DNA of 64,000 bases, taken from NCBI RefSeq assembly GCF_041260155.1, contig NC_091932.1:8771304-8835303 (forward strand), in the 5' to 3' direction. This document shows, in pieces, positions 25,726-59,249 of the stretch. Under the pieces are notes generated by a model. It searched no databases, had not been told where the DNA came from, and was given only the letters and a program-made list of their open reading frames with translations. How positions within the stretch are numbered: the stretch's first letter is position 1; the number at the start of each line of letters is the position of its first letter. Origin of the DNA: Ptychodera flava (lineage: Eukaryota > Hemichordata > Enteropneusta > Ptychoderidae). Made by a program: the position numbers and the translations under genes.

Positions 25726-25812
25726 ATGAGTCACTTTGCACAGGTTTTGTGTATGTGGTTGACCATGGTATTATTTGTGCTCATAATATTTGGGCTTCTT
25801 CCCCTATCACAG
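25726..25812 (+). CDS. Copy A exon 1: signal peptide
   Basis: Encodes a hydrophobic leader, MVLFVLIIFGLLPLSQ preceded by up to 13 residues, ending exactly at a CAG|GTAAAA donor. It aligns with copy B's MLLSVLSLFGHLVLSQ. A one-base difference upstream, in a run of A residues, puts the N-terminal extensions in different frames, so only the inner part is shared. Confidence 0.7.
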
Positions 25813-28800: not shown

Positions 28801-31800
28801 CAACGTCGCAGTGTAAATCCGTAGGTCAGAACCGTTGATCATAAATTTTCAGAACCGGTGATGTTTAAAAGTTTTGTATTGATCACTTCATTTAGGTTTA
28901 TGTGAATGACTTTCTCATCGAGCTGCGTCTATAATTGTCCCGGGCATTGTCCATGCGAATTTGGGGCCTGCCTTAGCTCCCTCCGATCGTCTGTATACTA
29001 CAGCCAAAATCACAGTCCTAAGCAAATTGTACAGTATTGAAAGTCAGATATATGTATCATGAACTTTATACAAAAATATATAAACAACACAGAATCAAAC
29101 GAAGAGGTTAGTTTGCTGTCGGGCCGGGTGCGCAGGGGACGACTTTGCAGTGAGGCCGGGATCTCTCTTGTGTTCGAACTTAAAGCTTACAATCATGACA
29201 ATGGCATGCCTGGAGCTCCATCGCATCGCAGCTAGCCGATAATTGTACTACTGTAGTCCTTGTGGGGATTAGATACCCGTTACGTTCGATATTATTTTGA
29301 AATACTTTTAAATTTAATAAGTAAGACTTTTGTACTGCATTCAAGATGTAATTTTCCTTTCTGAGCGTTTTCAATTACGCCGTACGGCAACGATATGCGA
29401 AGTTGATAGGCTGTGTTGCCTGCAGCGTAGCCTCGCCGTACACAAAATTCGTTTGAGTAGACGGAGCACAATCAGTCCTGTCATTTATTTTAAACGAAAT
29501 TTTCATTATACTCCATAATGGAAGAAACGACTAGTTCAATGATTACAATGGTGAAGTGTTGAATTTTTATTCGTATATGTTTTTCTCTCTCAATTCATTC
29601 AGCAAACTTGATCTCCGTACCATCGGTCACAACGTGCAGTGCCTTGTATGAAGCTTACAATCGACTGCCTCCGTCTTTAGTTTAGCTGTTCAAGACGTTT
29701 GTTTGCACGGCTCATTATAGTCGGAACAATCTGTAAACACTTACATATTTATATCTTTCCGGTATTTCACCCAACTTTCGCGCGTTTTTAGCTGAGTCTC
29801 TTTTCGATGGACCAGATCTTTTCGAAGAGCGTACGGTTTCTACGGACGCCACAGTAAAACTTGCGTAGATGTGGTTGAGCATGCGTGGTGGTGTGATTAC
29901 GTTTCGTTTCGTGTGTCAACAAAGCTGACTTCTGGTCCGGACAAGAAGTCATTTTTCACTCCTTTACTGTTAATCGTGAGGCGGGCTTGGCATGAAAACC
30001 ATGCGATTCAGTATTAATTATGGTCTACTTTCACATACTGAGGATGTCATTTTAATCAAAAATATGAAAAAAATTGTTTAAAGTTACAAATACTGGGGCT
30101 TTAAAAAATTGAGTTCAATGTTGCCTTACCGCGACGCTCGGTAATTTTCTTCTCCAGTTTGTGTATACCATATTGAAGTAAAAAATGACTATTGTATGAC
30201 GTTCAATGGGAGGGACATTGTAAGCGATTGCGAAGACCCAGATGGCAACACCGTGGAGTGTGTTGCCTGTTACAGTGACGATCCAGATTGTGCTGGCACT
30301 GGTACAGCTATACCATTCTGTAAGTATACAATGCACACACATTTTTAAAAGTTGAGAACACTAAAATAGATCGTAAATGCAATCCAAATGGAAACCGGAA
30401 CATAATGTCATCAACACATTCGCATATTCACATTTTGACACTTTCTCCTTTACAAACGTTTGCATATCATTTTTCTCTGCTGAATAACAAATGTTCACTT
30501 GAAACATGATGGGAAACATATGACATTGTGTGTCCAGTTATCAGATTTGATTGCCAATCTTGATCGAAGAGGGCGCAGAGTAGAGAAATACAACATTATC
30601 GTAGAAGTCCAATCTTCTGTATAAAGCGTAGGCATTTCTGAGATAATAATGGCTGACAGAATTGATCTGTACAACATGTTAGAACTCTAGTCCACAGCAA
30701 TTTCATGAGTTGCAATGCTCCATTTACATTTTGAAGTGAAAATGTAGAATCGATTTGCAAAGTTAAGGCAAGGAAAGACCCATTATTATAGTAATTACGG
30801 GGCAGGGGTCGGTGGAACTCATCAGCTACAAATGAAACATAAAAACGTCCCGGTCCAAATTAATTTTCTAAAATGCGACCCCTAAATTCATCAATTGTAA
30901 AATGTGACCCCTAAATTAATCTGATTTGATTCATTAAGCGTGTGGAGTCTAAGACCCTTGGTGGAAAATGACCCTTCCAAAGTGTTTGCAAGAAAAAAAA
31001 TGACCCTCCCTAATTTTCATGCCTAAAAGCACCAGTGACCCTCCCCAAGATGGCACAGTCCGTATCAATAATATCTTAATTGATGTATAATTTCTCATTT
31101 GACCTTTGAACTTTCAAAGACCCCTTTTTTGAACAGTACAAATAATCACTTGGGTGAAATTCTAATATGGTATTTGTTGTTTACATCTGCTCATTCAAAC
31201 ACACTATTTTCACCTCGCACATTTATATCAGTTTTCAAACATGTATAAAAGCACAGGTTAAGCTTATTTTGAATTGGGAAAAATATTCATACTTCCTCAT
31301 AGACTACAAAGTATGGTAAATCAAATTTCTTGCACTCAAATGCACTTGTAACCACCCTAGTCTAATTTAGTATATTAATATCAGTTATCAGGTGTTAAAA
31401 AATACACAGATTAAGCTTGTTTAATATATGAAAACATTGTTCAGAGTTTCCTCGTAGACTTTGTTGTCTGCAGTGAATCATCAAGTCAGTAAAATTCCAA
31501 CAAAAATTCTTGTTTAAATATAATTAGGTAATTTCAATGTCCAATCATCTTTGCAAAGACTTCATATAACTACATATTTTCAAATATTTTAGCTATTTTT
31601 CGCAGTATTCACAGTGTTGTAAAAGTAATGTCATGAACAATCATGACAGCTTTTCCAAAAACAGATGTAGACGTTGCTAGCTGTCGTTAACGCAGCCTAG
31701 AGAGACAACTTGCCAAGTCTATTACTATTTATTTATAAGTATACATTACTTCTCAGCTATCAAACTATGACACCTAAAAAGTCACCGTTTGGCCTTTACG

Positions 31801-34162
31801 TTAGATCGGTAAACGCCATATCTTTTAACTGACATGTTTTGAATAAATTTGTTGTCTTTTTAGGCTAATTATTTCAAAAAACGGACTTTCCTTTGCCAAG
31901 CATATTAAATTGCATCGTGAGTCTTCGTTAAAAGCCACGAGGTATACAGCTTGTCAGCAAAAGTTATGACGATCAAGTTTAGCGATAATGAAATTGAAAG
32001 CAATGGTGCAGTGAGAAATACGAACTTCGCTCTTTTTCTTCACCCTTTCACAGGCATTGTTTTTTTTCCCATCCGGCAATGCTACTAAAATATTACGCAA
32101 GATACTGCAAGCAACCAGATTTCTTGCGGTTAGCAATGGCTAGTGGTATCACGGCATTTAGACTTTATCAGAGTATGAGAATAAAAAATTATTTCGTGAA
32201 TACGATGTATGAGAGAAATTCTCAAATTCACTCAGAGTTTCAAACAAAAAATGTCATGACAATGCGTCATAAACTGCTGATGACTCCTTTCGTTCACAAG
32301 TTAACCTCACCAAGAGCCTCTACTGCAGAACCCGCTGAGAATGAACTTGCCATGGCGTTTCAAAGGAAACTTGTAGTTGTGTAAATGCATTTTTTGTTTA
32401 GAACTTATTTCTAGGCAACAGAATGTCTAACATTAACACCTGACCAGTACATAGGCCTAAGGGTCATTGCAAATGGTGAGAACAGCCATTGTACCCAATC
32501 ACGTACGCGTTTTGTGAAAGGTGTCAAAACATTCGGCTTACCTAACAGTTGCAGATAAACATGAAGAACAGTAGCATAAGTGGATGTGTTATAATGCGAA
32601 ACACGCCAGTTCTCTGAAGGCAAAAGTTTGAATGGACATGACACTTATTTCTCTTGGTCAAATTGATTTTTTTGTGTGAAAAAAGTGCTCTTTTCTGCTT
32701 GTTATCACCTGTTTAGAAAGAATGAAGCCATGTTCGTATTCTGTTGTATATGTATATTTTGGTCAATGCTGTTGATTTTTTGCCATAACTCCATAAAACA
32801 CTTCGTACAATTTGACCCCAAAATCATGGATAATTGATAACGGTTTGGTAAAAGTCAACACCGCAGTTTTCTATTGATCCCCCTACCCTTAAAAATGAAT
32901 GTTCCCTTATTTAATCACATACATAGTACAATATGATATCACAAATGATTCCAGTAAGTACTGTTCTATATTTTGAGTCAATAAGACTACATTCAAGCAG
33001 CAGGCCGGTTGAAATTATCGCTTCTGGTTATATTTCGAACGATGCCTCAAGAAATGTTTATCATATTATTCTAGACAATGTCTTGCTGTCATGTGATGGA
33101 GTAAAGCGTCCTGTTATTGCTCTGAATGGGGAAGAACCAGGACCTACAATCAGAGTGAGTATTCCGCTACCAAACCAGTTTTAGGTTACAGAACACTATT
33201 TATTTTTGTAATTACAAAGCAAGGTTTTGACATTTAAATGTGGATTTTCTATTGTTTGGGGGGATTTTCTTCGTTGATAATTTTTTTTATTGAATGAAAA
33301 TCAAAGAGATTTATTTTGCTTGCTTAAATTTTAACGCTTTTCTATACATTGAACTGTTATTGCTGTGCAGGTTAAGTATGGTACAATTGTCAATTTGACA
33401 TTGTATAACAACATGATTGAAGACTATACAACGATGCACTGGCACGGTATCTATCAGATAAGAACTCCCTGGTCAGATGGCGTACCATATATTACAGAAT
33501 GTCCAATCCCGCCGGGCGGAGTGTATGTATACACATTTGCCGCGATTCCGGCTGGTATGTTGCCCTGTCAAAAATTGTGCTGAGTAAAAATACCATTTGA
33601 ATATTTCTCTGTAAAAAAGACGTCATTCGCCTACTATTGTTCAATCGATTGAAGGCTCTTTCTTCGACTTCGTTTCGTTTAAACAGATTAGACCATTATA
33701 CAATCAATATTTTTTTCAAAGGGGATTCGAACACGCAACTCAAGCGAAGCATTAAACGAATACAACAGTTCGGCTACATTCAAACTTTCTCTTAAACTAA
33801 TTTATGTATGACTAAATAGTTAGAACCTTGTGAGAATCTAAAGAAACAAGGTTTAACCACGACCTTGCTACTGTACTGTGTAGTACTTAGTGGCAAATCC
33901 CGCAATAAAGTAAAATCGGTTATCATCACACTCCTTCAACATACGAATCCTGGCCTTTAAACATTACCAATATTATATTATTATGACAAAGGCCATGCCA
34001 CATACCTTACAGTGGAACTGTCACGGTTTATCATTGTGATGGATTTCAACGATTATTCTTGCCCTTGAGGCACCTTACTCCTAATTGTTTTATGGGGTAG
34101 CTGGTAATGGGTACCTCATCCTGTATGTTGGCAATGCCTGTTGGAAGATGGCTAATAACAAC

Positions 34163-34250
<88 letters not shown>

Positions 34251-37200
34251 TCTTCAAAACTAATTTCAATGTTTTTATAATTTCACAGGAACATTTTGGT
34301 ATCACTCCCACGTTAGTGACCAAATATCAGGTGGTATGGTTGGACCATTAATTGTGTATGAGGAAGACGAGCCAAACCAAAAATACTATGATTTTAATTT
34401 GCATGATATACGTAATGAGTATCATGAGCACCCTTTGCCTGAATACGATCAATTCATCATGTTATTAGCCGATTGGAGACATGAAGAAGCTATATTCGAA
34501 GATATTTCAGGATTCGAAGGCCCACGCCCGTTGGTCAGCCAAAGTCCCTCTACATCTGGTCTGGTTAATGGCCGTGGCCGATATTACCAAAACGACCCAA
34601 AGAAGCGGACTCCATATTTTTGCTATGCTGTGAAACCAGGTCACCGATATCGTTTCCGAGTTATTGGAGCTATGAGCGTTAACTCGTACCGCATATCGAT
34701 TGACGATCACAAGATGAAGGTAATCACTTCTGATGGTTTTGATCTCAACCCTGAAGATTTTGATTATGTCATCATATCAGCTGGCGAAAGGTACGACTTT
34801 ATACTTAAGACTCAAGATGATCCTGAATATACAACGTATAAGATTCGTGCCGATGTCGTACGTTTTGATGGTAAGGATGATGGCCCAATGGATGAAACCA
34901 ATGCCTCTGTGTTGCGCTATGGTGGCATCAGTACCATCTTTCTCAGTGATGATCTCCCACCAGATAGATGGCGTCATTGCAACGAGAGTAATCCTTGCTT
35001 TGCACTGAATTGTCCATTTGGTCAATATTCCCCTCCATCTTCACATCTTATGCACATCTATTGCTGATATGACCCGTTCTGCGAGAGAACTTGCCTTGGA
35101 TCCGACACTGAGCCATGTCACAAAAGAATCCCAAGTTTTTATGAACTTCGTTATTGCAGGCCGAGGTAGTAATGAACCAGGCACAAGCCCGAAGCCTGCC
35201 ATAAATGGCAAGTCGTTTGTCTACCCTACAGCACCACCTTTTGATCCTTCTTCTGAACTTACTAGTTGTGAACCAGAATGTGATGCTTCTAATCATCACA
35301 CTGTTTGCTTATGCACACATAATGTCACACTTGTTGACAATAATTACCAGTTTGTCTTCACAAGTATCGGATCAGGGGGCTCTAACAATGGCTCACATCA
35401 CCCGATCCACATCCATGGACACAGTGTCTTCTTAACGAAGATGGGGTTTCCAGAAAAAGATAAAGATGGTAATTATGTTAGAGCCAACCAGGATCTGTGC
35501 TGCCCTTGCCCGAACGATGATACTCAGTGTTGCTCTCTGGACGAGTAAGTTAATATCGAATGTAGATTTCAAACACCTAAATGGTGACATGCTTATATTG
35601 CTCACACCCAGGTATTTGATACGGTATCAACTTACGTTTCATAATTTGAAACCTCTATTTCGTTACTTCTAAACTCTCAACATGCACTTAGTAACTTTTA
35701 CAACCCTGTTCAACAGCTTCAGCTACAATACTCTAAAGTACCAATACTCCCTCATACCCTGCATCAGTTTCTACGCTGTCATTTGCTATATGCCAAATAG
35801 CTCAAAAAACCGCTTATTTTGTCAATTACAGCGCCAATTTGATCCCTATGAATTCATCATTTCGTTTTTGAGAAGAAATTTAGCTCCTGTGAGGACTCTT
35901 GCTATTAAGATGGCATATGAATCCCGAATCCACCGTCCAGTGCATATATTGTAAATTGGTTTTCACTGCCTTAAATCAGCCATGTTGAATACCAGGCAAC
36001 TTTTCCATGCCATTTTTTGCCAATCTTCTGATGAAACAGATTTTCACTGTTTTGGGTAAGACACTTGCTCTGTGCATACTAAGAGGCACATAGCTCATTC
36101 GCATATCTAGATCTCACAACTGCATATTCTCCGTGTTCAAGGTAAAATACTAGATTATCTTTATGCCTGCATGGCATGTGTACTACCAGTTTAAAATGTC
36201 CAATGCAGTGCACTATTCACTCCGATATTAATCGTATTTTTTTCGGCAAAAATTCTTTTGACAAATGCAATGGCAATTTTAGTATTGGGATATAATCATC
36301 ACCATTTCATACAGTGAAATGCTGGGATTTGCCTTTAACACGCCTTAACTTATCACAGTGTGACAGTGCCTTGTAATATGCCTCGTTGGAAAAATGATAC
36401 CTGGAATGAGAATCCTGACTCCATTCCAATGAACCTCTACAACCCACCTCGAAAAGATACAATTCTTCTCCCTGCCGGAGGATATGCTATTGTACGGCTA
36501 GAGGCTGACAATCCTGGTAAGTTATGTTATGGACTTTTGTCATACAATGCAAGCAAAGACAGATAGAAAAGGTTAACGAACTTGATGATAAGCATTTGAA
36601 GCAAAATTTCAGGAGTACATATGGACACTTTTTTGAGTAAGTTCCAGGTGTTCATGAACAATAGCAAGCAAAGTCGTAATTCGCCAAATAGGTATTAGCA
36701 GACCTCGTATTAGAAGATTAGACAGCAATGAACTGGTAAGTATTGGTGCACTTTCCACCGTTACATGAGTTTATCCAAATGACTTCTGAAAATAAATATA
36801 GATCGCCTCAAATCTAGGTTCCTTCTGTGTATTTTTCACAACTATGAGCAAATCAAAGAAACAAATTGAATTCTTTCAAACGAATTTAAAAACTATGATT
36901 AATGACTAATGTAGTCTTCAAACTTTGCCTTTGTAATTTTAGGTTGGTGGTTCTTACATTGTCATATTGAACCTCACTTGGATGGAGGTATGGTCCTTTA
37001 CTTGAATAGCAAACCTGATGATCAACCTGGACCACCGGAGGGATACCAAGGATGCGATCAATACTTCAGGCATGTTGAAGATTTCTATGACAAAGTCATG
37101 GAGCAGGGTGAGAAAATCTGTAACCGCTTAACCGCTCAGTTTCTAAGTTTCTGTAACTTTGTTTTTTTGTTCTCTAAAGTCTGATTCTCTGTGTCTTGTT

Positions 37201-40200
37201 TGATATTTCATTCACGAACTTAAAATGTTCTCTTAAATGGTTATACAAACTGACGATCAACTTTCAGTCCAATGATCTACGATGTTTTGAGCGATAAATG
37301 AGAGTTTACTAAAATCAGTCTAGAACTAACCCATGCAGTAGAAGTATACATGTCTTCATTACGAACAAAATGTCTTTTTAGAACCGGACCTGAAAAATGT
37401 TGCCTTGGGTGGAATGGCTTCTCTCAGTTTGGGTAGTGATGCTGAATATGGTAATGATGGTGATACACAAACCTGTGCCTTTTTGGCCGGTGAAGGCAGG
37501 ACCTGGTGGAAAGTTGACCTTGGTGACACCTATCAAGTACACAGGGTTATTTTGGAGAGCCCAAGTAAGCCAAATTAATGTATTCAGTGTGCGCATTTAA
37601 ATTTAAAGTTGGTAACTTCCGTTCAAACTTCCGTCGAGTATAGTTTCAACCAAAGACTTTCAAATAAATCAAGATTAAAAATTGGGGATCACAACGACCA
37701 TGTAGGCGCTGTGGAAACGGATCGCCACAAATTTACTGGTATTTGAAATTCAAAATTGCTGCTATCTTCACGTTAACTTTGTGGGAGAGTATGTTCTTTA
37801 TTTTCTCAAACTGTGGGAGTAAATAACTCTCACTAAGTCATATCACACCTTTGCTCTCAGCTCCCATTATTCTTTTACAATAGCTTTCAGGCAATTATTG
37901 ACAAACCTGCCAATTGACTCAAACCACGTACAATTTAAGAATGTTCTGCAAGAAAAATGATCGTTTGTTTCTTCTATGCAGGTGTTGGCCTTGTAAATTC
38001 AGTTATAAGAGTCGGTTCAGAAGAGAATATCGAATTTCACCATCAATGTGGTGAGGTCCTAGGAATCAGAAAGCTTGAGAGGGACTCGACAACAATCGAC
38101 TGCATAACACCTATTGTGGGTCGTTTTGTCAGCATCCAATCTGACCGTCGTAATTTCATTTCTCTCTGTGAAGTTCTTGTCATGGCAAACGGTGAGAAAT
38201 ATCTACATTGCCTATTTTCCTCAACAATTGCATGAACCTACGCATACACAATGACATAGCCATCAGTTTTGACGTCTTATGTCTTCCATTTTCTCCATTT
38301 CTTTGCCTACTTTAAGCATATTGAAATTAGAATGACGTAACTACCTTGGCATTTTTTCGTATTTAAATGCCACATGAATGAGATGAAGAATTTTCATTAT
38401 GGTTTTTTTTAGCTTCGATGAATTGTTCAATTATTACACTTGTATTCTGACACCGGAGGATACCCGTAGAGAGATTAATTCCCTCTCAGTACTACAGATA
38501 CTTCATTAGTAGGGGGGAGGGTGTTATAGCCCAATAAGAAAATAACACTGCCCTAAGAGACATAAGTAATATCAACATGTGTAGGTCTCTTTGAAGTTTT
38601 ATGTTGAGAAGGGACTTCTTTTCTTTACAAAATGGAATCTAAAGGAAAAAAACTGAATTACGTACATTCCATGACCTATTTTTCTCATCTACGTAAAGGT
38701 TTTTGACTTTCATTGTTAAAACAAACATCAGTAGAGAGAGGCTGTCAGAAGTAATCGTTTGCTTTATATAATAATTTGGACTACGAGTCCTCATTGGTTG
38801 ATATTGATAAACGAAAAGCACACAAAGGAGATATTTTCAACGTTTGTACCAAACCATTTTAGTGTCTTTAGTTTTATTAATACAAGTGAGGACATGACCA
38901 GTACAATGGGATCCAAAGGAAAATATCCGCTGATAACAAAGTCGATAAAAATCTCCAACTTCTTTTTATTAATCATAACATTGATCATTCTTGAAGCCAC
39001 AGGAAAATGGTGCAACAAACAGTGTGTCCCGCTATCTCTCCGGAAACCATAAACCATTCTGTGTAAACAAAATTATCTTTATATGGTATTGCTGCCGATA
39101 ATATAAACCATTTCAACAATTTTGTTCTGTGATCTACTTATAACTACTCATGGTTCCTGTGGGAGAAATGTGTTTGATCTTTCATTCAAACAGCTATCAG
39201 ACATAAAATAATTTATTCTTCGAGCAAATACCATTTTAAACGATATTTTCCTTTCTACAAGTGTCATCGGGAATTGCAACATTTAAAAAGAATTGATTAC
39301 CTGACAGCAATATTGCATTTCGCTATCACAGAAAATCCTGTTGACCAGCCCACCTTTGATTCCGGCTGTGGTATACCATACGACTTTTATGGCGACAGTG
39401 GAACTATCACATCAATGGGCTATGATGGGACAACTTTGTATGAGAATAATGCAAAGTGTGAGTTCCGCATCACTGCTAGCGAGGGAAAAGTGAGCATGGA
39501 AAATTTATACTTTGAACATTTAACATTAATTAAATTAATTAAATTTCTAAAAACGCAAATTCTACAATCAGGTATTCAATAGACGCTGTACATAACAGTT
39601 AAATGTTATAGCAAATAAAGTAAAAGCAGGGGGACATAAAAATTAAAGTAAAAAGTAAAAACGAACGAAAACAAAAGTCCTTACAACCGATAATATTCCT
39701 TAAAACGATATATTTTTGGGCTTTCGTTTGAATTGCTCAAATTACGCACAGATTTCAACTCTCCCGGCATTAAATTCCAAAGTTTAGGACCACAGAGAGC
39801 AAATGTGCTGTCGTTCGTCTAATTGAAGATCGTGGTGCTGTAAGATTATGGTTATTGTTTGTTCTTAAATTGAACTGATGTAGTAGGTTTTCTCAATCAT
39901 GTCTGTGAATCAGATGTAAAACGGAGCTTTGCCTTGAATTGCCTTAAAACCATTAAAATAACTTTAAAACTCTACTCTAGGTTTTACAAACAGCCAGTGC
40001 AACTCTTGCCTTGATTGTGACACAATGGCAAATTTCCCCAATCCCTTTACGATACTTTTTGCATGCCAAAATTTTGTAGATGTTCAATAAAATAACAATA
40101 AAAAAAGTAAAATAAAATAAAAAAATAGTCTACAATATATACTTTTATCGTCACAAAACTATTTGGTTAACTTTGATTTTGTAGACGGCAAAGTAGCAGT

Positions 40201-40722
40201 GACATTAAAATTAAAACAACAAATAAAACCATAGACAACATGAAATGCCAAGCATCAGAACGTCATAGTCCGCGATACAACACTAACCACCTTACAATAT
40301 ATTCTTACTGTCTGTGACATTGGTTACCTGCACGACACGACGTGTTAGCCAGATATCCAGTACTGATCGACTTCTTGATGGCATAACATTCACCAGTCAA
40401 AGTAAGACACTTTAACAAATGATAACTTTTGAGTTTATGCTATCGATCTGTTTTTACTGTTGTTTAAATCTAGGTTGTAATCACAATGGGTCATTTTCAA
40501 TGTTTTCTGCAGACAATAGTTCTGAACTTTGTGGCATTTGACTTGGAAGATGGAAGTGACTTTCTCTCTGTAAACGATATTGGAGGAAACCAAATTGCTG
40601 AATACACAGGTTCCTACATACCTGAACCACTTGCTACGAGCAGCAATCAGGTTATCGTGAATTTTAACACAAATCAAGGTGGCCAGGCCAGAGGATTTCA
40701 TGTCGACTGGGAGGCGGTATAA
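25726..40722 (+). CDS. Laccase-like multicopper oxidase with FTP and CUB domains, copy A (frameshifted)
   Basis: Secreted or surface oxidase expected to oxidise phenols or similar reductants and reduce O2 to water. Twelve exons: 25726-25812, 26094-26160, 30158-30319, 33075-33154, 33371-33554, 34289-35544, 36359-36516, 36943-37107, 37382-37564, 37982-38191, 39332-39489, 40513-40722. All introns are GT-AG and all phases fit. Reading across the frameshift gives about 972 residues. Copper sites are complete: HWHG, WYHSH, HPIHIHGH and HCHIEPHLDGGM (axial Met). Exon 6 has one base too many near 35041-35049 compared with copy B, giving a stop at 35067, before the last two copper motifs. All other exons are open. 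Start choice: ATG 25726; the Met at 25765 is conserved in copy B and is also plausible. Either the gene is a young pseudogene or polymorphic null, or the base is an error. Confidence 0.88.
26094..33154 (+). CDS. Copy A exons 2-4: Cys-rich N-terminal region
   Basis: Spans exons 26094-26160, 30158-30319 and 33075-33154. The peptide begins HWGDCE, continues VCVYHIEVKNDYC, SDCED, ECVACYSDDPDCAG, and ends LSCDGVKRPVIALNGEEPGP. This follows the Cys-rich pre-cupredoxin region of animal laccases (pattern C..C.Y...C..C...DC...DG..R...N...PGP). Introns 2 and 3 are swollen by transposon insertions not found in copy B. Confidence 0.8.
26995..30100. mobile_element. TTAA-flanked DNA transposon in intron 2 of copy A
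   Basis: Inverted ends AGCCCCAGTATTTGTAACTTT (26995-27015) and its exact complement at 30080-30100 are flanked by TTAA at 26991-26994 and 30101-30104. The equivalent intron in copy B (about 56.06 kb) has a single TTAA with matching flanks on both sides: GATAACTTTGTT on the left and GCCTTACCGCG on the right. It is therefore an empty site. TTAA duplication fits piggyBac or other TTAA-specific families. No transposase seen in 3.1 kb; one element is nested inside. Confidence 0.88.
27696..28465. mobile_element. Nested MITE with 29-bp TIRs and TAA duplication
   Basis: The left end starts GGGAACCGTCAGTATTTACG, the right end (complement) GGGAGCCGTCATTATTTACG; both continue to CTGGGGG. Flanking TAA occurs at 27693-27695 and 28466-28468. 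A 3-bp TAA duplication with G-rich ends fits PIF/Harbinger. The interior has GGGGTCA-like motifs and no gene. It lies inside the TTAA element, so it is younger than that insertion. Confidence 0.8.
30780..31072. mobile_element. Probable MITE related to the 27.7 kb element
   Basis: The left part GTAATTACGGGGCAGGGGTC resembles the start of the 27696-28465 element. Five TGACCCC/GACCCTCC-type motifs (complement GGGGTCA, GGAGGGTC) repeat across 290 bases, and the right side has ATGGCACAGTCCGTATCAATAATAT. Ends are diverged and no clean duplication is seen. It lies in intron 3 of copy A, about 2.1 kb longer than intron 3 of copy B. Confidence 0.45.
33371..37107 (+). CDS. Copy A exons 5-8: three-cupredoxin catalytic core
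   Basis: Exon 5 has TTMHWHGIYQ and YITECPIPPGG. Exon 5/6 junction encodes GTFWYHSHVSDQISGGM. Exon 6 (34289-35544) covers cupredoxin 2 (DGFDLNPEDFDYVIISAGE) and the start of cupredoxin 3 with HPIHIHGH. Exon 8 has WWFLHCHIEPHLDGGM. Together these supply the ten His and one Cys ligands of T1, T2 and T3 copper. Cys-rich loops (CCPCPNDDTQCC) follow the third motif. The frameshift lies between GQYSPPS and TSIADM. Confidence 0.88.
34148..34252 (+). repeat. (CAA)n(TAA)n microsatellite in intron 5 of copy A
   Basis: About 17 CAA units pass directly into about 15 TAA units. No equivalent run is in intron 5 of copy B. Confidence 0.95.
37382..38191 (+). CDS. Copy A exons 9-10: FTP (fucolectin/F5-8-like) domain
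   Basis: NVALGGMASLSLGSD, then TWWKVDLGDTYQVHRVIL, SVIRVGSEE, QCGEV, DCITPIVGRFVSIQS and SLCEVLVMANG match the order of motifs in the FTP family (eel fucolectin, tachylectin-4, pentraxin-like), a branch of F5/8-type lectin folds. The Cys-rich loop that usually follows the first strand pair and helps bind fucose is absent, so sugar binding is doubtful. Junction phase 1 on both sides makes it a shuffle-competent module. Confidence 0.8.
39332..40722 (+). CDS. Copy A exons 11-12: CUB domain and C-terminus
   Basis: Exon 39332-39489 encodes DSGCGIPYDFYGDSGTITSM...NNAKCEFRITASEGK; exon 40513-40722 encodes TIVLNFVAFDLEDGSDFLSV...GFHVDWEAV and the stop. The pattern fits CUB, but only the first Cys pair is present; the position of the second pair has Ser (GSDFLSV). 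The domain ends the protein. Confidence 0.8.
39569..40128 (+). mobile_element. Retroposon-like insertion in intron 11 of copy A
   Basis: The segment ends in an A-rich tail (AATAAAAAAAGTAAAATAAAATAAAAAAATAG, 40098-40128 region) and is flanked by TCTACAAT at 39561-39568 and 40129-40136. Copy B's intron 11 is only 239 bases, against 1023 here, and lacks this sequence. The interior, with CTCCCGGCATTAAATTCCAA, has no open frame, so it is a SINE or truncated LINE tail. Confidence 0.65.
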
Positions 40723-40803: not shown

Positions 40804-41022
40804 ATCATAATTGTGTCAAGACTCAACAGGACAAGATGTACGGACAACAAGTGCCTGTATGTCGAAACTACCGTTTTGCTTAGGCTATTGGTAAGTAAAT
40901 CGAATTTATTGATCGAATATCGACCCCTAGATTACCAATCGACTATGCAAAACGGCAGTGTTGACATATAGACGCTTGATATCTCTACATCTTGTCCTGT
41001 TGATTCTTGACACAATTATGAT
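40804..41022. mobile_element. Perfect-type foldback MITE just 3' of copy A
   Basis: Arms of about 109 bases, ATCATAATTGTGTCAAGACTC on the left and its complement on the right, meet near 40913, giving a nearly full-length hairpin. It starts 82 bases after the stop codon and may lie in the 3' UTR. A related single arm occurs 3' of copy B at 47262-47345. Confidence 0.8.
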
Positions 41023-45387: not shown

Positions 45388-45544
<157 letters not shown>

Positions 45545-47261: not shown

Positions 47262-47345
47262 CAATTGTGTCAAGACGGAATAGGACACGCTGTATGGACC
47301 ACGAGCATCTGTATGTCGATAGTACCGGTTTGCAGAGTCGATCCG
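47262..47345. repeat. Single-arm relative of the 40804-41022 foldback element
   Basis: CACAATTGTGTCAAGAC, then ATAGGACACGCTGTATGGAC, TGTATGTCGATAGTACCG match the left arm at 40.8 kb with substitutions. It lies about 130-210 bases beyond the stop of copy B, close to the equivalent position in copy A. Confidence 0.6.
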
Positions 47346-47473
47346 TGATGGGGAGAGGGTAATATTCAAAATAAAACCTGGCTTTAACTCACCTTCTGCG
47401 ATTGAACTTGTGATGAGGGAAAAAACTAATTGTGTCACATTTACAAAATAAACTTACTGGTTAAGGTCTTCTT

Positions 47474-48080
47474 TTATACTGCCTCCCAGTCGGCATGAAA
47501 ACCTGTGGCCTGGCCACTTTCATTTGTGTTAAAATGCACAATAACTTGACTGCTGCTCGTAGCAAGTGGTCCAGGGATGTTGGAACCAGTGTATTCAGCA
47601 ATACTTTCTCCTCCGATACCATTCACGGAGAGAAAGTCACTTCCTTCTTCCAAGTCAAATGCCACAAAGTTCAGAACTATTTTCTGCAGAAAACAACGAA
47701 ATGTCAAATTCTTAATTCAAATTTGATTTGGACATTGATATAAAACAAGGAACAATATAAACACAAAAGTGCACATTTAAGCGCATTATTTTGACTGACA
47801 AATATTACACTCAAAACATGCTCCATCTCTACACTGGATATTTGGCTACCACGTCGTCCTAATCAAATATTCGGTGTTAAAGAGTTCATAAACTTGAACA
47901 TGTATAGGTTTTCCGTACTTACTTTTCCCTCGCTGGCGGTGATGCGGAACTCACACTTTGCATTATTCTCATACAAAGTTGTCCCATCATAGCCCATTGA
48001 TGTGATGGTTCCACTCTCGCCATAAAAGTCGTGTGGTATACCACAGCCGGAATCAAAGGTTGGCTGGTCAACAGGATTTT
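47474..48080 (-). CDS. Copy B exons 11-12: CUB domain and C-terminus
   Basis: Exon 48080-47923 gives FDSGCGIPHDFYGESGTITSM and NNAKCEFRITASEGK; exon 47683-47474 gives KIVLNFVAFDLEEGSDFLSV and ends GFHADWEAV-stop. One Cys pair only, as in A. The 239-base intron 11 is the uninterrupted form of A's 1023-base intron. Confidence 0.88.
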
Positions 48081-51000
48081 CTGTGATAGCGAAATGCAAT
48101 AATACTGCGTTACCTAATCGAATCTGTTTAAGATGTGCAAATGCATCCATAAAAAAGGATATTATTGTTTCAAATGGAAATTGCACAAAAAATAATTAAC
48201 ACCTTGTCAGCTTACTGTCTTGAATGAAGGTGCAAATTACTTACAAATTACTTGAACAGGGACCACGATTTATTATATATAAATCATATCGATAAATTAT
48301 AGAAATAAACTATATTCCGACGCAATACCTATTACTATAACAGTAATTTTGTCCACATTGAATAGAATGTGGCATCAAGAGAGATAGCGAGATACACACA
48401 ATTTGATGCATCATCATATTGTGGCTCGCAATTATAATAAATGAATAAATGAGGCTAGCGATTTTTAACAATCAAATTTATAATCTTTTTCATTGGTGCA
48501 CATTCTTCGTTTGGATTCATTGTACTTGTCATACTATCAACTGTATTATTAAAACCCAAGAATCAAAAATTGTTTGGTACAAACAATGAAAGACACGTCT
48601 TCTTATGTGCACCACTTTATCAATAACAATCAATGAGTCCAAAGCATGATCTAAAACAACGATTACTTCTGATTGCCTCCCACTGGTGTTCTTTGTTGTA
48701 GTAATGAGAGTTTCAAATCGTTACGTATATTTGAAAAAATAGGTCATGCAATTAACACAATTCGTTCTTTCTTTCAAGTTAGTCTTTTGTAAAGGAACGA
48801 CAGTCCCTTATTATCATAAGAATTAAAAAATATTCTACACATGCACATCACTCATGCCTCTCACTGCAGTGTTGTATTTTTCACATTGAGCAGTTTCCCG
48901 CCCCTACTAGTGAAGTACACGTATTAGTTAAGAGAAAACACTGTCTATGCTATTATTTACAAATATGTAAGAATATTTCCTGGTGCCTTAATGCAAGTGT
49001 CACTATTAAGTAATGCATCAAAGCTGAAAAAAGAATGAATATAAATTCTACGATTTATCTTTATGACATATAAAATTGAATACTCAAAATATAACGAGGC
49101 TGTGTGCGAATGCTGATTTTGGTGTTCTGAAAAGCGGCCAATTAATAAATGAAATGGACGAGATAAAACGTCAAAGCCGATGTTATGACTATTCGATGCA
49201 GCTATTTTTCACTGTTTACCATCACTAAAACGTCACAGAGAGAGACGGTAGTGCGGTTGTCAGATTGAATGCTGACGGAATAACCCGAAAAAGGTGTTAT
49301 ATGCAGTCGACTGTTGTGGAATCGCTCTCAAACTTTTAGATTGCCCAGACCTCGACGCATTGATGCTACAATTAATTTCAGTTTTCGGTTTAGATAGCTT
49401 TTTAAAGAAAGGAAATCCCTTCTGATGTATTATATAATACTTAAAGAGACTCTACACATATTGACACATCTTATATCTGAATCTAAGTGTCATAATTGAA
49501 CATTGCATTGAAGCTAAAAGAATCATATTAATTCTTCATCTCATTAACATGACATGTAAATAAGTACGCATTAAAGTCAAGGCTCTGAGCTAATTCACAT
49601 TTCAATGTACTTAAAGTCGGCCAATAAATCAATAAAACGGGAGAGATAAGACGTCAAAGCTGATGGTTATGTGAGTGTGTATTCTTAGCTTCATGCAATG
49701 TTTGAGGAAAATTGGCAATGTAGATATTTCTCACCGTTTGCCATGACAAGAACTTCACAGAGAGAAAGGAAATTGAGACGGTCAGATTGGATGCTGACAA
49801 AACGACCCACAATAGGTGTTATGCAGTCGACTGTTGTGGAGTTGCTCTTGAGCTTTTCGATTACCAAGACCTCACCGCATTGATGCTGAAATTCAATGTT
49901 CTCTTCTGAACCGACTCTTACAACCGAATTTACAAAACCAACATCTGTACAGATAGAAAAGGAGTAACTATTTGCTTGCAGAACATTCTTCCGTTTTACA
50001 TGATTTGAGTCAATATTCAGTTTTATCAATAATCACATGAAAAGTACCATGAAACATTATCCATGTTTACAGAGAAATTGAGTTCAAAAATAGAATTTGC
50101 CTCGGAGATAGCTATTTATGTACAAGACTCGTCTGATATACCACTAATGAGGACTCGTTTTTCACCTGTTTATGTAGAAAACATTTACACTGTTACATTT
50201 TTGTTAAAATAAGGTTAAAAGGGAGACAGCAGCAAATTTGAATTTCAACTGCCTGTAAAGTTGAGCAATTGTTTTCATAGTGCCAAGATATGGACGGCGA
50301 CCTCGATATTTCATATTGATTTTGAAAGTGAATGGTTGAAACAATTTCTACAGCTAAGTTTTAAAGAATGTTAGAGACTTTTAATTTAAAGAACCACACT
50401 ACCTTACGAGGGAATAAACACAGAATAAACTCATTTTGCTTACCTGAATTCTCTAAAATAACCCTGTATACTTTATAGGTGTCACCAAGGTCAACTTTCC
50501 ACCAAGACTTGCTTTTACCTTCCAAAATGGCACAGGTTTGTGTATCACCATCATTACCATATTCGGCGTCTCTACCGACACTTAGAGAAACTGCTCTATC
50601 CAAGGCAACATTTGTGAGGTCCGGTTCTACAAAGATATTTCTAATAAACATATGTTGTATTTCTGTTGCATGGGTCAATTCTGGACCAATCTAAGCAGCG
50701 TTTCATTTATCCCTCTAAAATATATCGCAGATCATTCTTCCTTACACTATCAGATAATTGCTAGTTTGCATTAAGTTTCAAGGAACATTTGAAGTTCGTG
50801 AACAAAATATCATACAATAAACAGACAAACAAGCATACGGGAACTAAGAACAAAGAAGTACAAACTGAGCGATTAGAGTAATTCTGACCCTGTTCCTTGA
50901 CTTTTTCGTAAAAATCTTCAACATCCCTGAAGTGTTGATCGCATCCTTGGTATCCCACTGGTGGTTCTGGTTGATCATCAGGCTTGCTGTTCAAGTATAG

Positions 51001-54000
51001 GACCATACCTCCATCCAAGTGAGGTTCAATATGACAATGTAAGAACCACCAACCTAAAATTACAAAGGCAATGTTTGGAGACTATAGTACTTATTTTTTA
51101 TCGGTTTTAATTAGATTTTATATTTTCATTTGTTTGTTTGGCTGCTGTTATTACATAATTCATAACGTCTTGTAGCCACACTAAATCTCATGACGGAATA
51201 TGCAGAAAGAGTCCAACAGTACTAAGGGACGGCGATCTAAATGATCTCATAAGGCGAAATATGCACTTAACTACTGCTTAACCTTCTTGTATATCAGCAA
51301 ATGCTGTTTGGAGAGTTACGACTTTGCTTTGGAAGGGAGTTACATATATTTGCAATGTAGCCAATCCACTTGTACTTATACACAAATCTAAAAGTGGGCA
51401 GCATAGCTTTCTATTCATAGAAACCGAGCCGTAGGGCGCTCTTTTGGACACCTTTTTAATGTGATTACTAGGCCTCTAGTTCAAACCCCTTTTAGCTTTC
51501 CCAAAGGTCAGTTTTCAGATTTCATTTCGTATAGATTATTACTGACACAACGTTATTAGCTGTTACTGTCAAGAATGAATTGCCTGAATGGAGCCCCAAG
51601 CACAGAACATATATATTGCCATATGTTTGAGGAAGTCAGCCTTGATCACGAGTCAAATATCTTCCTTTCTTTAATTGTTCTTTACCTTTGCCAGTCACCT
51701 CTGATATAGACGGACTCTATAGATTATATCGTGGCCATAATAGGTTACACAACAATATGAAAAAAATAATTTTGAAAAATAAAAAAAAAAAATCTCCAAT
51801 AAATAAAATATACTCTGTGTTGCTATCCTCGTGCAAATACTTATTTTAAAACTGGAGAAAATGGGCAATACAAAAAACGGATAAACGGTAACAGTTATTC
51901 TTATCTTGTTTTCCTTGTATTTCACCGCAAATCTTTATAACATAACTTACCAGGATTGTCAGCCTCTAGCCGTACAATAGCATATCCTCCGGCAGGGAGA
52001 AGTATGGTATCTTTTCGAGGTGGGTTGTATAGGTTCATTGGAATGGAGTCAGGGTTCTCATTCCAGGTATCGTTTTTCCAACGAGGCAAATTACAAGGCA
52101 CTGTCACACTGTGTGAAGTTAAGACGTGTTAAAAGCAAATCATATCACATGGTGATAATTATATCCTAATACAAACATTGCAAGTGAGTTTGTCAAAATA
52201 AATGATTATTTAGCTGAAATAATGACATCTTTGGGCTTGAATAATACAATGTATTGGATATCATATATTGGTCATATACATTGTATTAAATATTTTGTAA
52301 GATATGACTTAGAATTTTGAATTCTGTGAAAGCTAATTTTTTTTCTTTCATCTAAGATCTTGCTCGCAGTACATATTACGACTTGGATAGTTTTATCTCC
52401 ACCTTAGGCATACGTTACACATCTTCCAATTTTCGGATAAGTTTATTATATTATGATTTTGAATTGGCTATGTCCTACATAACATGAATAGAATAAGCTA
52501 CTTACCAACATAGTGAACTATCAATTCCACTATATTTACAAGAGAAGCATGGTATGGAAAAATCTTCTGATAGCGAAATGATTGTTTGGCTAGTTTAAGG
52601 TAGCCGAAACTTATTAATAACGGTATATATGCACAGGGTGAGTAAGGCATGAATAATATGCAATTTTATCAGCAAGCAGTCTGTACAGGAGCTAAATCTT
52701 TCCCCAAAGACGGAAAAAAGGGATTGAAGATAGTTCTAATTGGCGTTGTAAGAGACGAAATAAGTGGTATTTTAACTTTTTAACATGTCATACCAAATGA
52801 TAGCATATAGTTTGGGGTGTATGGGTGAATTAGTTAAAGCTGCTGAACACGGTAGAGAGAAAGTTACTCATGGCGGCTTGAGAATTTAGAATAAAAAGGA
52901 AAAGAAGTATAAAGGTATAAGCCTGAAGCAGATATTGAATGTAGCATATACAATTCCAAAATATGTGTGTCATAAAACGTTGTCAACATTTAGGTTTTTG
53001 AAATCTGCACTACTTATCAACTTACTCATCCAGAGAGCAACATTGTGTGTCATCATCCGGGCACGGGCAGCAAAGATCCTGGTTGGCTTGCAAGTAATCG
53101 CCTTCTGCATCTTTTTCAGGAAAACCCATCTTTGTCAAGAAGACACTGTGTCCATGAACATGGATTGGGTGATGTGAGCCATTGTTAGAGCCCCCTGATC
53201 CGATACTTGTGAAGACAAACTGGTAATTGTTCTCAACAAGAGTGACGTTATATGTGCATAAGCAAACAGTGTGATGATCAGAGGCATCACATTCTGGTTC
53301 ACAACTAGTGTGTTGAGAGGTAGGATCAAAAGGTGGTGCTGAAGGGTAGACAAACGACTTGCCATTTATGGCAGGCTTTGGGCTTGTACCCGGTTCATTA
53401 CCACCTCGGCCAGCAATAACGAAGTTCATAAAAACTTGGGCTTCTTTTGTGACATGGTTCAGTGTCGGATCCAAGGCTAGTTCCCTCGTGGAACGGGTCA
53501 TATCGGCAATAGATGTGCATACGGTGTTAGATGGAGGGGCGTATTGGCCAAATGGACAATTCAGTGCAAAGCAAGGATTGCTCTCGTTGCAATGACGCCA
53601 TCTATCTGGTGGTAGAGTATCACTGAGAAAGACACCACTGGTGCCACCATAGCGCAACACAGAGGCATTGGTTTCATCCATTTGGCCATCATCCTTACCA
53701 TCAAAACGTACGACATCGGCACGAATCTTATACGTTGTATATTCAGGATCATCTTGAGTCTTAAGTACAAAGTCGTACCTTTCGCCAGCTGATATGATGA
53801 CATAATCAAAATCTTCAGGGTTGAGATCAAAACCATCAGAAGTGATTACCTTCATCTTGTGATCGTCAATCGATATGCGATATGAGTTAACCCTCATAGC
53901 TCCAATGACACGGAAACGATATCGGTGACCTGGCTTTACGGCAAAGCCATAATATGGAGTCCGCTTTTGTGGGTCGTCTTGGTGATATCGCCCACGGCCA

Positions 54001-57000
54001 TTAACAAGGCCAGATGTAGAGGGAGTTTGACTGACCAATGGGCGTGGACCTTCGAATCTTGAAATAGATTTGACTATAGCTTCTTCATGTCTCCAATCGG
54101 CCAATAACATGATGAACTGATCGTATTCAGGCAGAGGGTGATACTCATTACGGATATCCTGCAAATTGAAGTCATAATACTTTTGGTTTGGCTCATCTTC
54201 CTCATACACGATTAATGGTCCAACCATACCACCTGATATTTGGTCACTAACGTGGGAGTGATACCAAAATGTTCCTGTTAAAATTTTAAAAAAAATTGGA
54301 ATAAGTCTTTGTAGATTTTTTGTTGATATACATCAGAATGATAAACCTTGACAGTTCATCAAAAAAGGCGTGTGATATAATCTCTGTCATGATGTTTTGT
54401 CGAACACTTTGTAATGTGTCAGGGCCATCAAGGATGCCATTCTTATGTTGTAACGATGACCGGAGGCATCAATCATCAACTTCATTGCCACAAAAGATTA
54501 CACAGTTCAGTAGATATATTACATATATTGAAATATGAACCCAGTATCTTAACGCCTACAGTCTAAGAAAGATTTAAGCATTTAGTCATCCATTAATTAG
54601 TTTGTTTAAATGTAGCCTAATGGTTTTGATCATTTTAATATTGAATGCTCCGATCTGTTCAAAACAAAACGAAGTCAAAGGAAGCGTTTAGAATCGATCA
54701 AACAATAAAAGACGAATGACGTATTTGCACATAGAAATGTTCAAACCATGTCTTCACTCAAGACAGATTTGACAAAACGACAACGTACCAGCCGGAATTG
54801 CGGCAAATGCGTAGACATACACTCCACCTGGCGGAATTGGACATTCGGTAATATATGGTACTCCATCTGACCAGGGAGTTCTTATCTGATAGATTCCGTG
54901 CCAGTGCATCGTTGTATAATCTTCAGCCATGTGGTTATATAGCGTTAAATTGACGATCGTACCATACTTAACCTGCACAGCAATAGCGGTAGTATTAGAA
55001 TGGATTAAAGTAGACGAAACAACTCTCGTCAATTTTTTATTACATAAGCCAAATAAAAATAAAAATACACGAATCCAGACGGAAATATCAAAACATGGCC
55101 ATGTAATGACAAAATCAATAATTTTGCTATAACCTGAAAACTGAATTGTTAGCAAAATACTTACTCTGATTTGTGGTCCTGGTTCAAGACCACTGACAGC
55201 AATAACAGGACGCTTTACTCCATCACATGACAGGGTGACTTTTTCTAAATATTATGATAAAAATATTTAAGAAGAATCGTTGAAAATATGACGGGAGGTC
55301 TAGTTAGTTGTCTAATTAAATTAAAAAAATACGAGTGTATGTAACTGGAATCACTTATATGACCTATATTGCATTCTTTTTGTGGTTAAGTAACATTAAT
55401 TACTCTTTTCTTGCCTTAGTATTAGCAAACCGATACCACATTATCACCTGAATATGTAAATAGAACATTGAAACCCATGAAATGGCTGTGGAATAGAGAA
55501 CTAACATTCTGTACAGATAAATTCTACCAGCCTTTATTATTTAAGACATCAAAGCAAATGTTTTATAGAAGATTGCACATCTAAGTTGTTCTTGTATTTC
55601 TCTACGCTTCGCCCTCTTTCATCAAAATAAGCAATAAAATCTGACAACTGGGAAAACAATGTCATATGTTTTCCGTCATGTTTCATGTGAACATTAGTAA
55701 TTCAGTTATTCAGTTATTCAACGCATGCTAACATTTGTAAAATAGATAACCAAAATGTAACGATGTGAAGTTGCTGATGACTTTATGTACCGATTTCCAA
55801 GTCCGTTGGATTCCTTTATGCATAAAACACAGCCGGATTGTATACTCACCGAATGATATAGCTGTCTCGGTGCCAGCACAATCTGGATCGTCTTTGTAAC
55901 AGGCAACACATTCCACGGTGTTGCCATCCTTGTCTTCGCAATCGCTTACAATGTCCTTGCCATTGAATGTCATACAATATTCATCTTTTACTACCATGTG
56001 GTACACACAAACTTAAAAAGAAAATAAACTTCGCGGTAAGGCACCTTTACACCAAATTCTTGTTAAGCAAAACAAAGTTATCACAAAAATTACCGAACGA
56101 TGAAATATTTTTCCTGAAACGATGCGAAACTTCTTGGTGCTATGGGCTACGTCAACTAATGACAAAAAAGCATTTTGCAATATCTTGTAAAGTGACTAAT
56201 TTGAGAAAGGAAATTGCTTACGCCCATGATGGATATCAAAATAATAAAATCCGGCAGTTACAGAATAGTTTTTGCTTCAAGCTTTCTCCAGTGTTTTATA
56301 TGTAAGTTACCGTTCAATAAAACACGCGCTTCATATAAAAGCTAACCTTAACATAGACTCTAATGCATTTATTTAAGGTAAATACAATTTAAGTAGTTAT
56401 ATACCATTTAAAATCTCTTTCAATTATATAATTTGACTGAGAGTGGGTTTGTGTGTTATTCTATTTCACTTTGTTATGTATCCTTACATCATCCACTTGC
56501 CGCGAATATCAGATCAAAGGGTAATTCTGACACATAGATGGATGGCAACAATGAATTCCGTGTCCAGAATTTTTTGTAGTAAATTTAGCTCACTGGTATT
56601 TTGATTTATTTAAGAAGACATGCGAAAGAAATTCCGACGCAGCCAGTACAGATATAAGAAATATCGGATATAAGAAACAAAACTTACAGGAAATGCATGG
56701 TTACACAGACGTGACTCGAATTCTGTCATACTGAAGGTTTCTGCTTGTGTCATCGATAGTTAGTAACTTAGGGTATATATTTTCGTGGCCTTCTCCTACT
56801 ACGCTGTTTATAAATAGTTAAAGAATGATTTTCACAACAAAAACACCATATTTATTTTATCAACTTACCTGTACGATGGTCGTTTAGTTCCGGGATATAT
56901 TCAAGTTCACAATCTCCCCAATGCAGAAAGGAGCCCTGCGAATTAAGAAAATAATTTGTTATTGAACACGCGCTGTAAGGAAATGAATTGTCATATTCGC

Positions 57001-57337
57001 ACCACACACGACCCTAAGTGCAGAGGTCACCGTTATTTCTTTTGACTTTACGTGGAAGTTGCCCTAGTACTCAAATGCAAAACGATAGAAAACTGTTTGT
57101 AGCTTGTTTTGCATAGTCTTTTTCGTCCTGAAGAAAGAACCAGATTATTTCCAATATCACCGGAATTCGTTTGAAACGTGTTACCAATTACTATACTGTT
57201 TGTACCTGTGATAGGACAAGATGCCCAAACAGGGAAAGCACAGATAATAACATGGTCAACCATGTACACAAATCTTGTATAGTGACTCGTTCCCAGACAG
57301 CTTTTTTATATTCTTTCCTTAATTCAGCAACTTTCAT
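47474..57337 (-). CDS. Laccase-like multicopper oxidase with FTP and CUB domains, copy B (intact)
   Basis: Twelve exons on the minus strand: 57337-57206, 56935-56869, 56011-55850, 55244-55165, 54972-54789, 54274-53026, 52108-51951, 51053-50889, 50626-50444, 49944-49735, 48080-47923, 47683-47474. All junctions are GT-AG and phases match copy A. The product is about 985 residues with no interruption. Landmarks with rough positions: signal region 1-44, Cys-rich 45-147, HWHG 169, WYHSH 213, HPIHVHGH 577, HCHIEPHLDGGM 682, FTP domain 733-863, CUB 865-985. All copper ligands are present with Met at the T1 axial place. Expected role: extracellular O2-dependent oxidation of phenolic or related substrates, with two C-terminal modules typical of extracellular adhesion. 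ATG 57337 gives a long n-region; the conserved inner Met at 57253 gives a 16-residue leader. Confidence 0.93.
49213..49380 (-). pseudogene. Decayed duplicate of copy B exon 10
   Basis: The sequence GCATTGATGCTAC, GCAGTCGACTGTTGTGGAAT, TCAGATTGAATGCTGACGGA and GTCACAGAGAGAGACGG, read on the + strand, mirrors exon 10 at 49735-49944. Read as coding, it has lost frame in several places. The donor-side GTGA is kept. Flanking intron sequence is duplicated too (for example GTCAAAGC.GATG.TTATG at about 49170 and 49650), so this is a tandem segment duplication of about 520 bases. Arm A has a single exon 10. Confidence 0.85.
49735..50626 (-). CDS. Copy B exons 9-10: FTP (fucolectin/F5-8-like) domain
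   Basis: Exon 50626-50444 encodes NVALDRAVSLSVGRDAEYG and SWWKVDLGDTYKVYRVIL; exon 49944-49735 encodes VGFVNSVVRVGSEENIEFQ, QCGEVLVIEKL, DCITPIVGRFVSIQS and SLCEVLVMANG. As in A, the fucose-binding Cys loop of the family is missing. Exon 10 has a decayed second copy 522 bases downstream. Confidence 0.85.
50889..54972 (-). CDS. Copy B exons 5-8: three-cupredoxin catalytic core
   Basis: Exon 54972-54789 has TTMHWHGIYQ; the 1249-base exon 54274-53026 starts GTFWYHSHVSDQISGGM and ends with HPIHVHGH and CCPCPDDDTQCC; exon 51053-50889 has WWFLHCHIEPHLDGGM (read from its start). Compared with A, exon 6 lacks two residues (NEYHPLP versus NEYHEHPLP) and the extra base. Two GC-poor introns of 0.9 kb flank exon 7. 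Confidence 0.92.
55165..56935 (-). CDS. Copy B exons 2-4: Cys-rich N-terminal region
   Basis: Exons 56935-56869, 56011-55850, 55244-55165. Peptide landmarks are HWGDCELEYIPEL, VCVYHMVVKDEYC, SDCEDKDGNTVECVACY, DDPDCAGTE and LSCDGVKRPVIAVSGLEPGP. Cys positions equal those of copy A. Introns are short and free of the insertions seen in A. Confidence 0.85.
57206..57337 (-). CDS. Copy B exon 1: signal peptide
   Basis: Forty-four codons from ATG 57337 (MKVAELRKEYKK...) end with CTWLTMLLSVLSLFGHLVLSQ-type hydrophobic leader at a CAG|GTACAA donor. The hydrophobic part aligns with copy A's exon 1; the first 13 residues do not share a frame with A, so translation may start at the inner Met (57253). 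Confidence 0.7.
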
Positions 57338-57989
57338 TCTATGTAAAGTACCATGCAAAAAGCACTGTTTCTAAATATTAGGTGTGAATGGAGTAAGACA
57401 CATCAGAATTTTTTGTTTCAATAATTGAAATCCGAAGAAAAGGAAAGGTTCAATTGAATAGTATTAACAATGATGTTTTATTCATCATCCGCATGGTTTT
57501 ACTGCTAACTGCGCAGGAACATAGATATTTTCGTATACTGCGAACTGGGCTGCGTGTTTGCGAAATGATAGGCAAGTGTTCCTTGATTTTTGCTGGTATT
57601 TAAATATTGAACAAAGCACATGTCCCTACAACAGGATGAGTATTCCTTAAATTTTGTAAAAGCTTTTACCACGGGGAAGAAGATAAGCAGATGGATCAAT
57701 CAAGCAAAGGAAACATTGAAGAAAACTCTACAAAGTCTTTACCAGTGCTATCAGTCAAATAGTGATTTTTAATAACATCCCACAGACTAAGAGACTACGA
57801 AAAATATGTAACCATACTGTTGTTTACTAATGTACAATTAGTAAGGCTGTTAATCTTTTTGTGTCCATGTCGGTTTATATCGAATAAACCAGCCTCTCAT
57901 TAGTATTAATATTTTTATCCAAGAAGATTGTCCCTATCAACTATACGAGGCACTGAGCAAAGCGCTTAATGTGCCATAATATATTCACA

Positions 57990-58814: not shown

Positions 58815-59249
58815 ATGTGTATTGTCAAGCATTTTGCCCTCTGATGGCTGATAGCATCAAATGAAGATGAGAGTTAAGTCCGGTCTAAGTTTTTACATGT
58901 GTACTGGCTTGTACATCTTTGCTATACGTCAACCCTATGTGTTTGATTTTAAAGACTGTGCGATGTGACTGTCATCGGAAAAGTGTCTCCATAAATGTGC
59001 CTTAAATTCAGTAACAAGCTAGTTCTCGCGTAAGTACCTATTGACATTGAGATTTTACATTCTGTTAGTCATTCGTTTTCCATTGAATTTTTTATTAAAA
59101 TTGGTGAATTTACTTTTGGGTAAAACTGATAAACAGTCTGTCCACTTAAAGGAGTAGTTATTTTTCATCAGAATTGAGATAGGCGAGCCACTGTAACCCA
59201 AATTCTTCAACTTTTACAATCTCTTTGAGAGCAGGAGAATAACATATCG

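Follow-up and report, generated by a model that had tools for sequence, protein, structure and literature searches.

Does the locus analysed here encode an oxidase that carries its own docking modules on the same polypeptide, or does a plain laccase gene lie next to a separate gene for such modules? The locus is part of a stretch of 64,000 nucleotides of contig NC_091932.1 (positions 8,771,304 to 8,835,303; hereafter the window), and it had been proposed, in a reading made from the nucleotide letters alone (the sequence-only reading), that a laccase core, an FTP module and a CUB module are here joined in one gene. The gene model computed by us bears this proposal out. On the minus strand, 12 exons with GT/AG borders, set by side-by-side reading of the two copies of the gene present in the window, join into a single open frame that terminates with a stop codon at 47474 and encodes five Pfam domains in the proposed order. 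The exons of this gene, referred to as copy B, are:

57206..57337, minus strand: exon 1, initiator (ATG 57337 or 57253) and hydrophobic leader
56869..56935, minus strand: exon 2, N-terminal region
55850..56011, minus strand: exon 3, N-terminal Cys-rich region
55165..55244, minus strand: exon 4, start of the first cupredoxin
54789..54972, minus strand: exon 5, copper motif HWHG
53026..54274, minus strand: exon 6, HSH motif, second cupredoxin and HPIHVHGH
51951..52108, minus strand: exon 7, third cupredoxin
50889..51053, minus strand: exon 8, HCHIEPHLDGGM motif (type-1 Cys, axial Met) and end of the laccase core
50444..50626, minus strand: exon 9, first half of the FTP (F-type-lectin/F5-8-like) module
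49735..49944, minus strand: exon 10, second half of the FTP module
47923..48080, minus strand: exon 11, first half of the CUB module
47474..47683, minus strand: exon 12, second half of the CUB module and stop codon

The core of the copy B protein consists of three Cu-oxidase domains, which follow each other in the order 3, 1, 2 of animal three-domain laccases and all score above their curated Pfam cut-offs: Cu-oxidase_3 at residues 94-206 (E 5.2e-34), Cu-oxidase at residues 233-391 (E 5.1e-26), and Cu-oxidase_2 at residues 613-675 (E 1.7e-28). Residue numbers refer, here and below, to the modelled protein of 957 amino acids that starts at 57253. The four copper motifs and the N-terminal Cys region noted by the sequence-only reading are all present. 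The motifs, HWHG (142), HSH (186), HPIHVHGH (549) and HCHIEPHLDGGM (655), together contain all ten expected histidines and the cysteine, which we take to be the copper ligands, and a methionine is the axial residue at the type-1 copper; the Cys-rich region is encoded by exons 2-4, with cysteines at positions 25-99. Relatives of the core in the Protein Data Bank (PDB) are laccases. With the core as query, the NCBIfam laccase equivalog TIGR03389 was the best among the six models listed, yet its score fell far below the cut-off (193.1 versus 558.9 bits), and the term laccase consequently names a family here and not a proven activity. Judged by its copper ligands, copy B would encode a competent laccase-type oxidase whose activity and secretion we infer.

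Two further domains follow the core. F5_F8_type_C_2 (PF22633) at residues 729-817 (E 1.6e-7) and CUB at residues 854-953 (E 7.2e-16; 58.9 bits versus a cut-off of 21.4) also exceed their curated cut-offs, so that the Pfam search of the spliced protein recovers the domain composition that the sequence-only reading had suggested; on the same two modules, PF00754 (24.9 versus 28.2 bits) and PF23062 (30.1 versus 32) remain below theirs. The corresponding pieces of the second gene copy, copy A, score with the same Pfam families (CUB, 66.7 bits versus 21.4). In two PDB searches with exons 9-10, F-type lectins were the only matches under E 0.001 (two of the eight rows in each search), namely FBP32 (3cqo; 2.8e-10 for the whole chain and 1.5e-5 for the best single domain) and the eel lectin (1k12; E 1.2e-4), while the weaker rows (E > 0.001) include non-lectins. 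The CUB part (exons 11-12) matches cubilin (4.8e-28 for a four-CUB chain, 8.7e-8 for the best single domain), and its further PDB relatives comprise the procollagen enhancer (PCPE), neuropilin and complement-protease CUB chains.

With moderate confidence, we read copy B as the gene of a secreted three-cupredoxin laccase that ends in an FTP-fold module followed by a CUB module, the two forming a docking tail. At the type-1 copper, with its axial methionine, the core would draw single electrons from phenols or diamines, and the trinuclear cluster would reduce oxygen to water. The tail would most likely tether the enzyme to a surface, be it a protein, a matrix or a cell, where reactive quinones would then be made locally, and the product might serve in the tanning of a secreted structure or in immune melanisation. 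Besides this docking and this role, we infer the route by which the tail was added, which may have been the shuffling of exons flanked by phase-1 introns. Exons 9 and 10 have lengths divisible by three, each begins and ends in phase 1, and a phase-1 intron also leads into the CUB exon pair. Phase-1 borders of this kind commonly point to exon shuffling in animal genes, and the architecture was probably built in this manner.

The same domains could be read differently, in that the modules might serve recognition or assembly in an immune phenoloxidase that circulates. Complement-protease CUB chains are indeed among the PDB matches of the CUB part; furthermore, the available excerpts of two studies on snails describe a soluble laccase-like activity in haemolymph that is raised by trypsin treatment (PMC4722754) and laccase transcripts that respond to bacteria (PMC7919325). 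However, this literature support comes from snails, and the host, presumably an animal to judge from the introns and domains, may not be a mollusc. We hold such a function to be possible but rather improbable.

What the docking tail might bind is a separate matter. According to the excerpt of PMC5712786, the fucose motif of F-type lectins is HX24RXDX4(R/K), and some members of the family depart from it, their sugar recognition being possibly changed or lost. The strict motif is absent from the entire copy B protein, and even in a relaxed form, which three of three control segments (the eel lectin and both FBP32 domains) do match, it was not found in the FTP module of either copy. In the two copies, the motif histidine is replaced by Ile or Phe and the first arginine by Ser or Pro, and the loop is shortened. 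As the fucose loop falls at the border of exons 9 and 10, a missed micro-exon was searched for in intron 9, but no conserved one that restores the loop was found (limits, 9-60 nt and >80% identity). It is therefore quite unlikely that the FTP module functions as a lectin and directs the oxidase to mucus or to glycans bearing fucose, despite its PDB matches to F-type lectins, and the failed motif in both copies rules out fucose targeting as the default reading. The F-type-lectin cation motif, tested as two small hydrophobics, DG and a small hydrophilic residue, is represented by DGD without the hydrophobic pair; the lectin control segments, which do not span this motif, gave no match either. 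The calcium-binding site of CUB domains is formed by Glu, Asp and Asp. By eye from the alignments, the Glu and the first Asp are kept in both copies, and the second Asp is replaced by Asn. Since the fucose motif is absent, docking to a protein, a matrix or a lipid membrane appears to be the better guess, and its fucose-binding version is disfavoured. Hence, of the surface targeting put forward in the sequence-only reading, a matrix or surface in general is reasonable, whereas the glycan version is unsupported. Taken as a whole, that earlier interpretation is partly supported.

Whether the docking tail and the core truly share one gene can be judged by a comparison with copy A, the inverted paralogue on the plus strand:

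25726..40722, plus strand: copy A, inverted paralogue of 12 exons with a frameshift in exon 6
25726-25812, 26094-26160, 30158-30319 and 33075-33154, plus strand: copy A exons 1-4
33371-33554, 34289-35544, 36359-36516 and 36943-37107, plus strand: copy A exons 5-8
37382-37564, 37982-38191, 39332-39489 and 40513-40722, plus strand: copy A exons 9-12

Apart from exons 1 and 6, the exon lengths of the two copies are equal, and their junctions are equivalent, as had been noted in the sequence-only reading. This holds for the junction between the laccase core and the tail as well, across which the splice phases are compatible. Intron 8 (262 and 274 nt in the two copies) is 72% identical between the copies over 251 aligned columns, with 34 gap columns; the neighbouring exons 8 and 9 are 91.5% and 84.2% identical, respectively. 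Between the copies, the ratio of non-synonymous to synonymous divergence (dN/dS) is 0.15 for the core (581 codons), 0.45 for FTP (129 codons) and 0.31 for CUB (121 codons), and a one-sided Fisher test on rounded counts gives a synonymous excess for both FTP (p 0.006) and CUB (p 0.0025). These ratios omit exon 1 (16 codons; ratio 1.4 from few sites), intron-split codons, and codons with gaps or stops; for exon 6, copy A codons beyond the frameshift were read in the copy B frame through the alignment.

The alternative, in which a laccase without additions stops after exon 8 and FTP and CUB make up a protein of their own, as two genes or two forms of transcript, draws on the weak donor 8 of copy B and on the hydrophobic tail that results in both copies when exon 8 is read through into intron 8. 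These tails are, however, unrelated between the copies, and intron 8 contains no AATAAA or ATTAAA poly(A) signal in either of them. In its frame back to the first stop, exon 9 is preceded by no Met in copy A, and by a single Met in copy B that is not followed by a leader. Moreover, introns as short as these would leave little room for a promoter, and the position of the junction is equivalent between the copies. Hence, transcripts ending after exon 8 and a separate transcript for exons 9-12, which the sequence-only reading had named as contrary to its proposal, are disfavoured by the sequence, and we consider two genes or transcript forms very unlikely. Given that the splice phases fit, that no leader precedes exon 9, that intron 8 contains no poly(A) signal and that both modules are under constraint, the laccase core, FTP and CUB belong, in our judgment with high confidence, to one fused gene.

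Copy A differs from copy B in one respect that went unnoticed in the sequence-only reading: it is frameshifted in exon 6. This exon has seven extra bases relative to copy B, equal to two codons and one base, and the DNA alignment places the extra base that breaks the frame at roughly 35020-35060. Copy A either is a recent pseudogene or carries an assembly error, and as a result of the frameshift one gene, copy B, is intact as assembled. That both copies are decaying pseudogenes, as the frameshift of copy A together with the two weak donors and the ambiguous start of copy B might indicate, is hardly credible in view of the 957 open codons of copy B, a dN/dS of 0.231 over exons 2-12 (932 codons; synonymous divergence about 0.27), and copy A exons 7-12, each of which is still open in the expected frame beyond the frameshift.

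Both laccase genes lie inside a large inverted duplication, arranged tail to tail (about 22973-42502 versus 46012-59655), whose matching pieces reach beyond the two genes, and an AG microsatellite is present between the copies at 45391-45543. Intron 10 of copy B harbors a further stretch of exon-like sequence:

49214..49373, minus strand: decayed and frameshifted second copy of part of exon 10 (identity 77.5% across 160 columns)

Its frameshift and stops rule it out as an alternative exon, and when the window was searched by BLAST with exon 10, copy A showed no counterpart of it.

Several points weigh against our preferred reading of copy B as a secreted and docked laccase. The gene model was read from genomic DNA alone, and its start is ambiguous. 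An in-frame ATG at 57337, which coincides with the end given to the gene in the sequence-only reading, sits 28 codons upstream of 57253 and would extend the protein from 957 to 985 residues; a stop codon lies further upstream at 57371-57373. Copy A carries further in-frame ATGs upstream of 25726, and the ATG used as its start reads ACG at the matching place in copy B. Depending on the start, the hydrophobic leader, which ends at 57206, spans 16 or 44 amino acids, and from 57337 it comes after 28 more polar residues. The longer start would agree less with a signal peptide and makes a protein anchored in the membrane possible; past residue 40, no membrane anchor is evident, since the highest hydropathy mean over 19 residues is 1.10. 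Donor 8 of copy B (GTCAGA) scores 0.69, compared with 4.46 in copy A, and donor 1 scores even lower (0.43), both with a rough matrix. The constraint on FTP and CUB is weaker than that on the core, and dN/dS is 0.59 for exon 9 alone and 0.89 for exon 4 at the start of the core. Finally, neither the FTP nor the CUB module yielded an identified ligand site in our motif checks.

Elsewhere in the window, two overlapping open frames at 14793-16075 show similarity to Core-2/I-branching glycosyltransferases (PF02485; 8.7e-12 and 2e-25), split over the two frames. Satellite-like tandem repeats of an approximately 145-bp unit occur at 10029-11089 and 7452-7882, and arrays of short repeats, whose core CTGCCCTGAGGGCAG is present in either orientation, at 1327-2422. 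Scans of the 64-kb window with Rfam (gathering threshold) and for tRNAs gave 0 matches each.

How does the fused gene compare with known systems? A laccase with FTP and CUB was not found among the open-access literature matches listed, which, as a result of word matching, is weak evidence of absence. With the copy B protein as single query, a search that reaches close relatives only, GTDB genomes gave five pattern-matching stretches, none of which was confirmed by tblastn, and IMG/VR gave no match. We regard copy B as a member of a known enzyme family with a putatively new domain architecture, seemingly unusual as far as its lineage spread can be judged from the literature. Its parts are common, and the route by which such fusions come about is known. 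Exons 9-10 (393 nt), the FTP part, form a single cassette whose removal would leave the frame intact, and this provides a testable case of how a laccase could be aimed in animals. If docking is real, phenol oxidation would be tied to a defined surface, which bears on the tanning of secreted structures and on melanisation.

Copy B resembles insect laccase 2 (MCO2), and other three-domain laccases of animals, in the N-terminal Cys-rich region, the three Cu-oxidase domains and the multicopper-oxidase motifs, as far as the excerpted sources describe them, and in a leader that is putative in copy B. In the excerpt of PMC12313077, the insect plan consists of a signal peptide, a Cys-rich region and three Cu-oxidase domains; it names no further domain and, unlike copy B, neither FTP nor CUB beyond the third cupredoxin. 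The statement of the sequence-only reading that known animal laccases mostly end at this point agrees with this one insect plan and was checked through the literature only.

Among the relatives of the tail, F-type lectins (eel AAA, bass FBP32) resemble exons 9-10 of copy B in sequence; in copy B this domain is without the fucose motif and joined to an oxidase. A lectin call at the domain level, one should caution annotators, does not equal fucose binding. Neuropilins combine CUB and F5/8-type modules in one protein, and neuropilin chains are among the PDB matches of the CUB part of copy B, but they contain no oxidase and differ in the order and number of their modules. In the coral skeleton, a multicopper oxidase and CUB proteins are both found in the mineral matrix, although this oxidase, according to the excerpt of PMC4890752, has six cupredoxins and the CUB domains reside on separate proteins.

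The coagulation factors V and VIII share with copy B a plan in which F5/8-type (discoidin-fold) domains come after a multicopper-oxidase body. In these factors, the F5/8-type domains dock the protein to a surface, and the body is made of six cupredoxins of the ceruloplasmin line, with two C domains and no CUB. Instead of six cupredoxins with C1 and C2, copy B has matches to three Cu-oxidase families and a single F5/8-type region, and no factor C domain was present among the eight rows, at E up to 10, of either FTP search in the PDB. Factors V and VIII are to be viewed as an analogue of the copy B plan and not as a relative by descent; the excerpt of PMC3600357 places laccases in the three-domain group and factors V/VIII in the six-domain group. 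It is a tentative proposal, which we would not rank as probable, that a three-domain laccase line independently reached a factor V/VIII-like plan, with discoidin-fold docking and a CUB module, by exon shuffling, and that its FTP module lost fucose binding and came to bind a protein or a membrane instead, giving rise to a surface-docked cross-linking oxidase. In its build, the architecture of copy B parallels that of the clotting cofactors.

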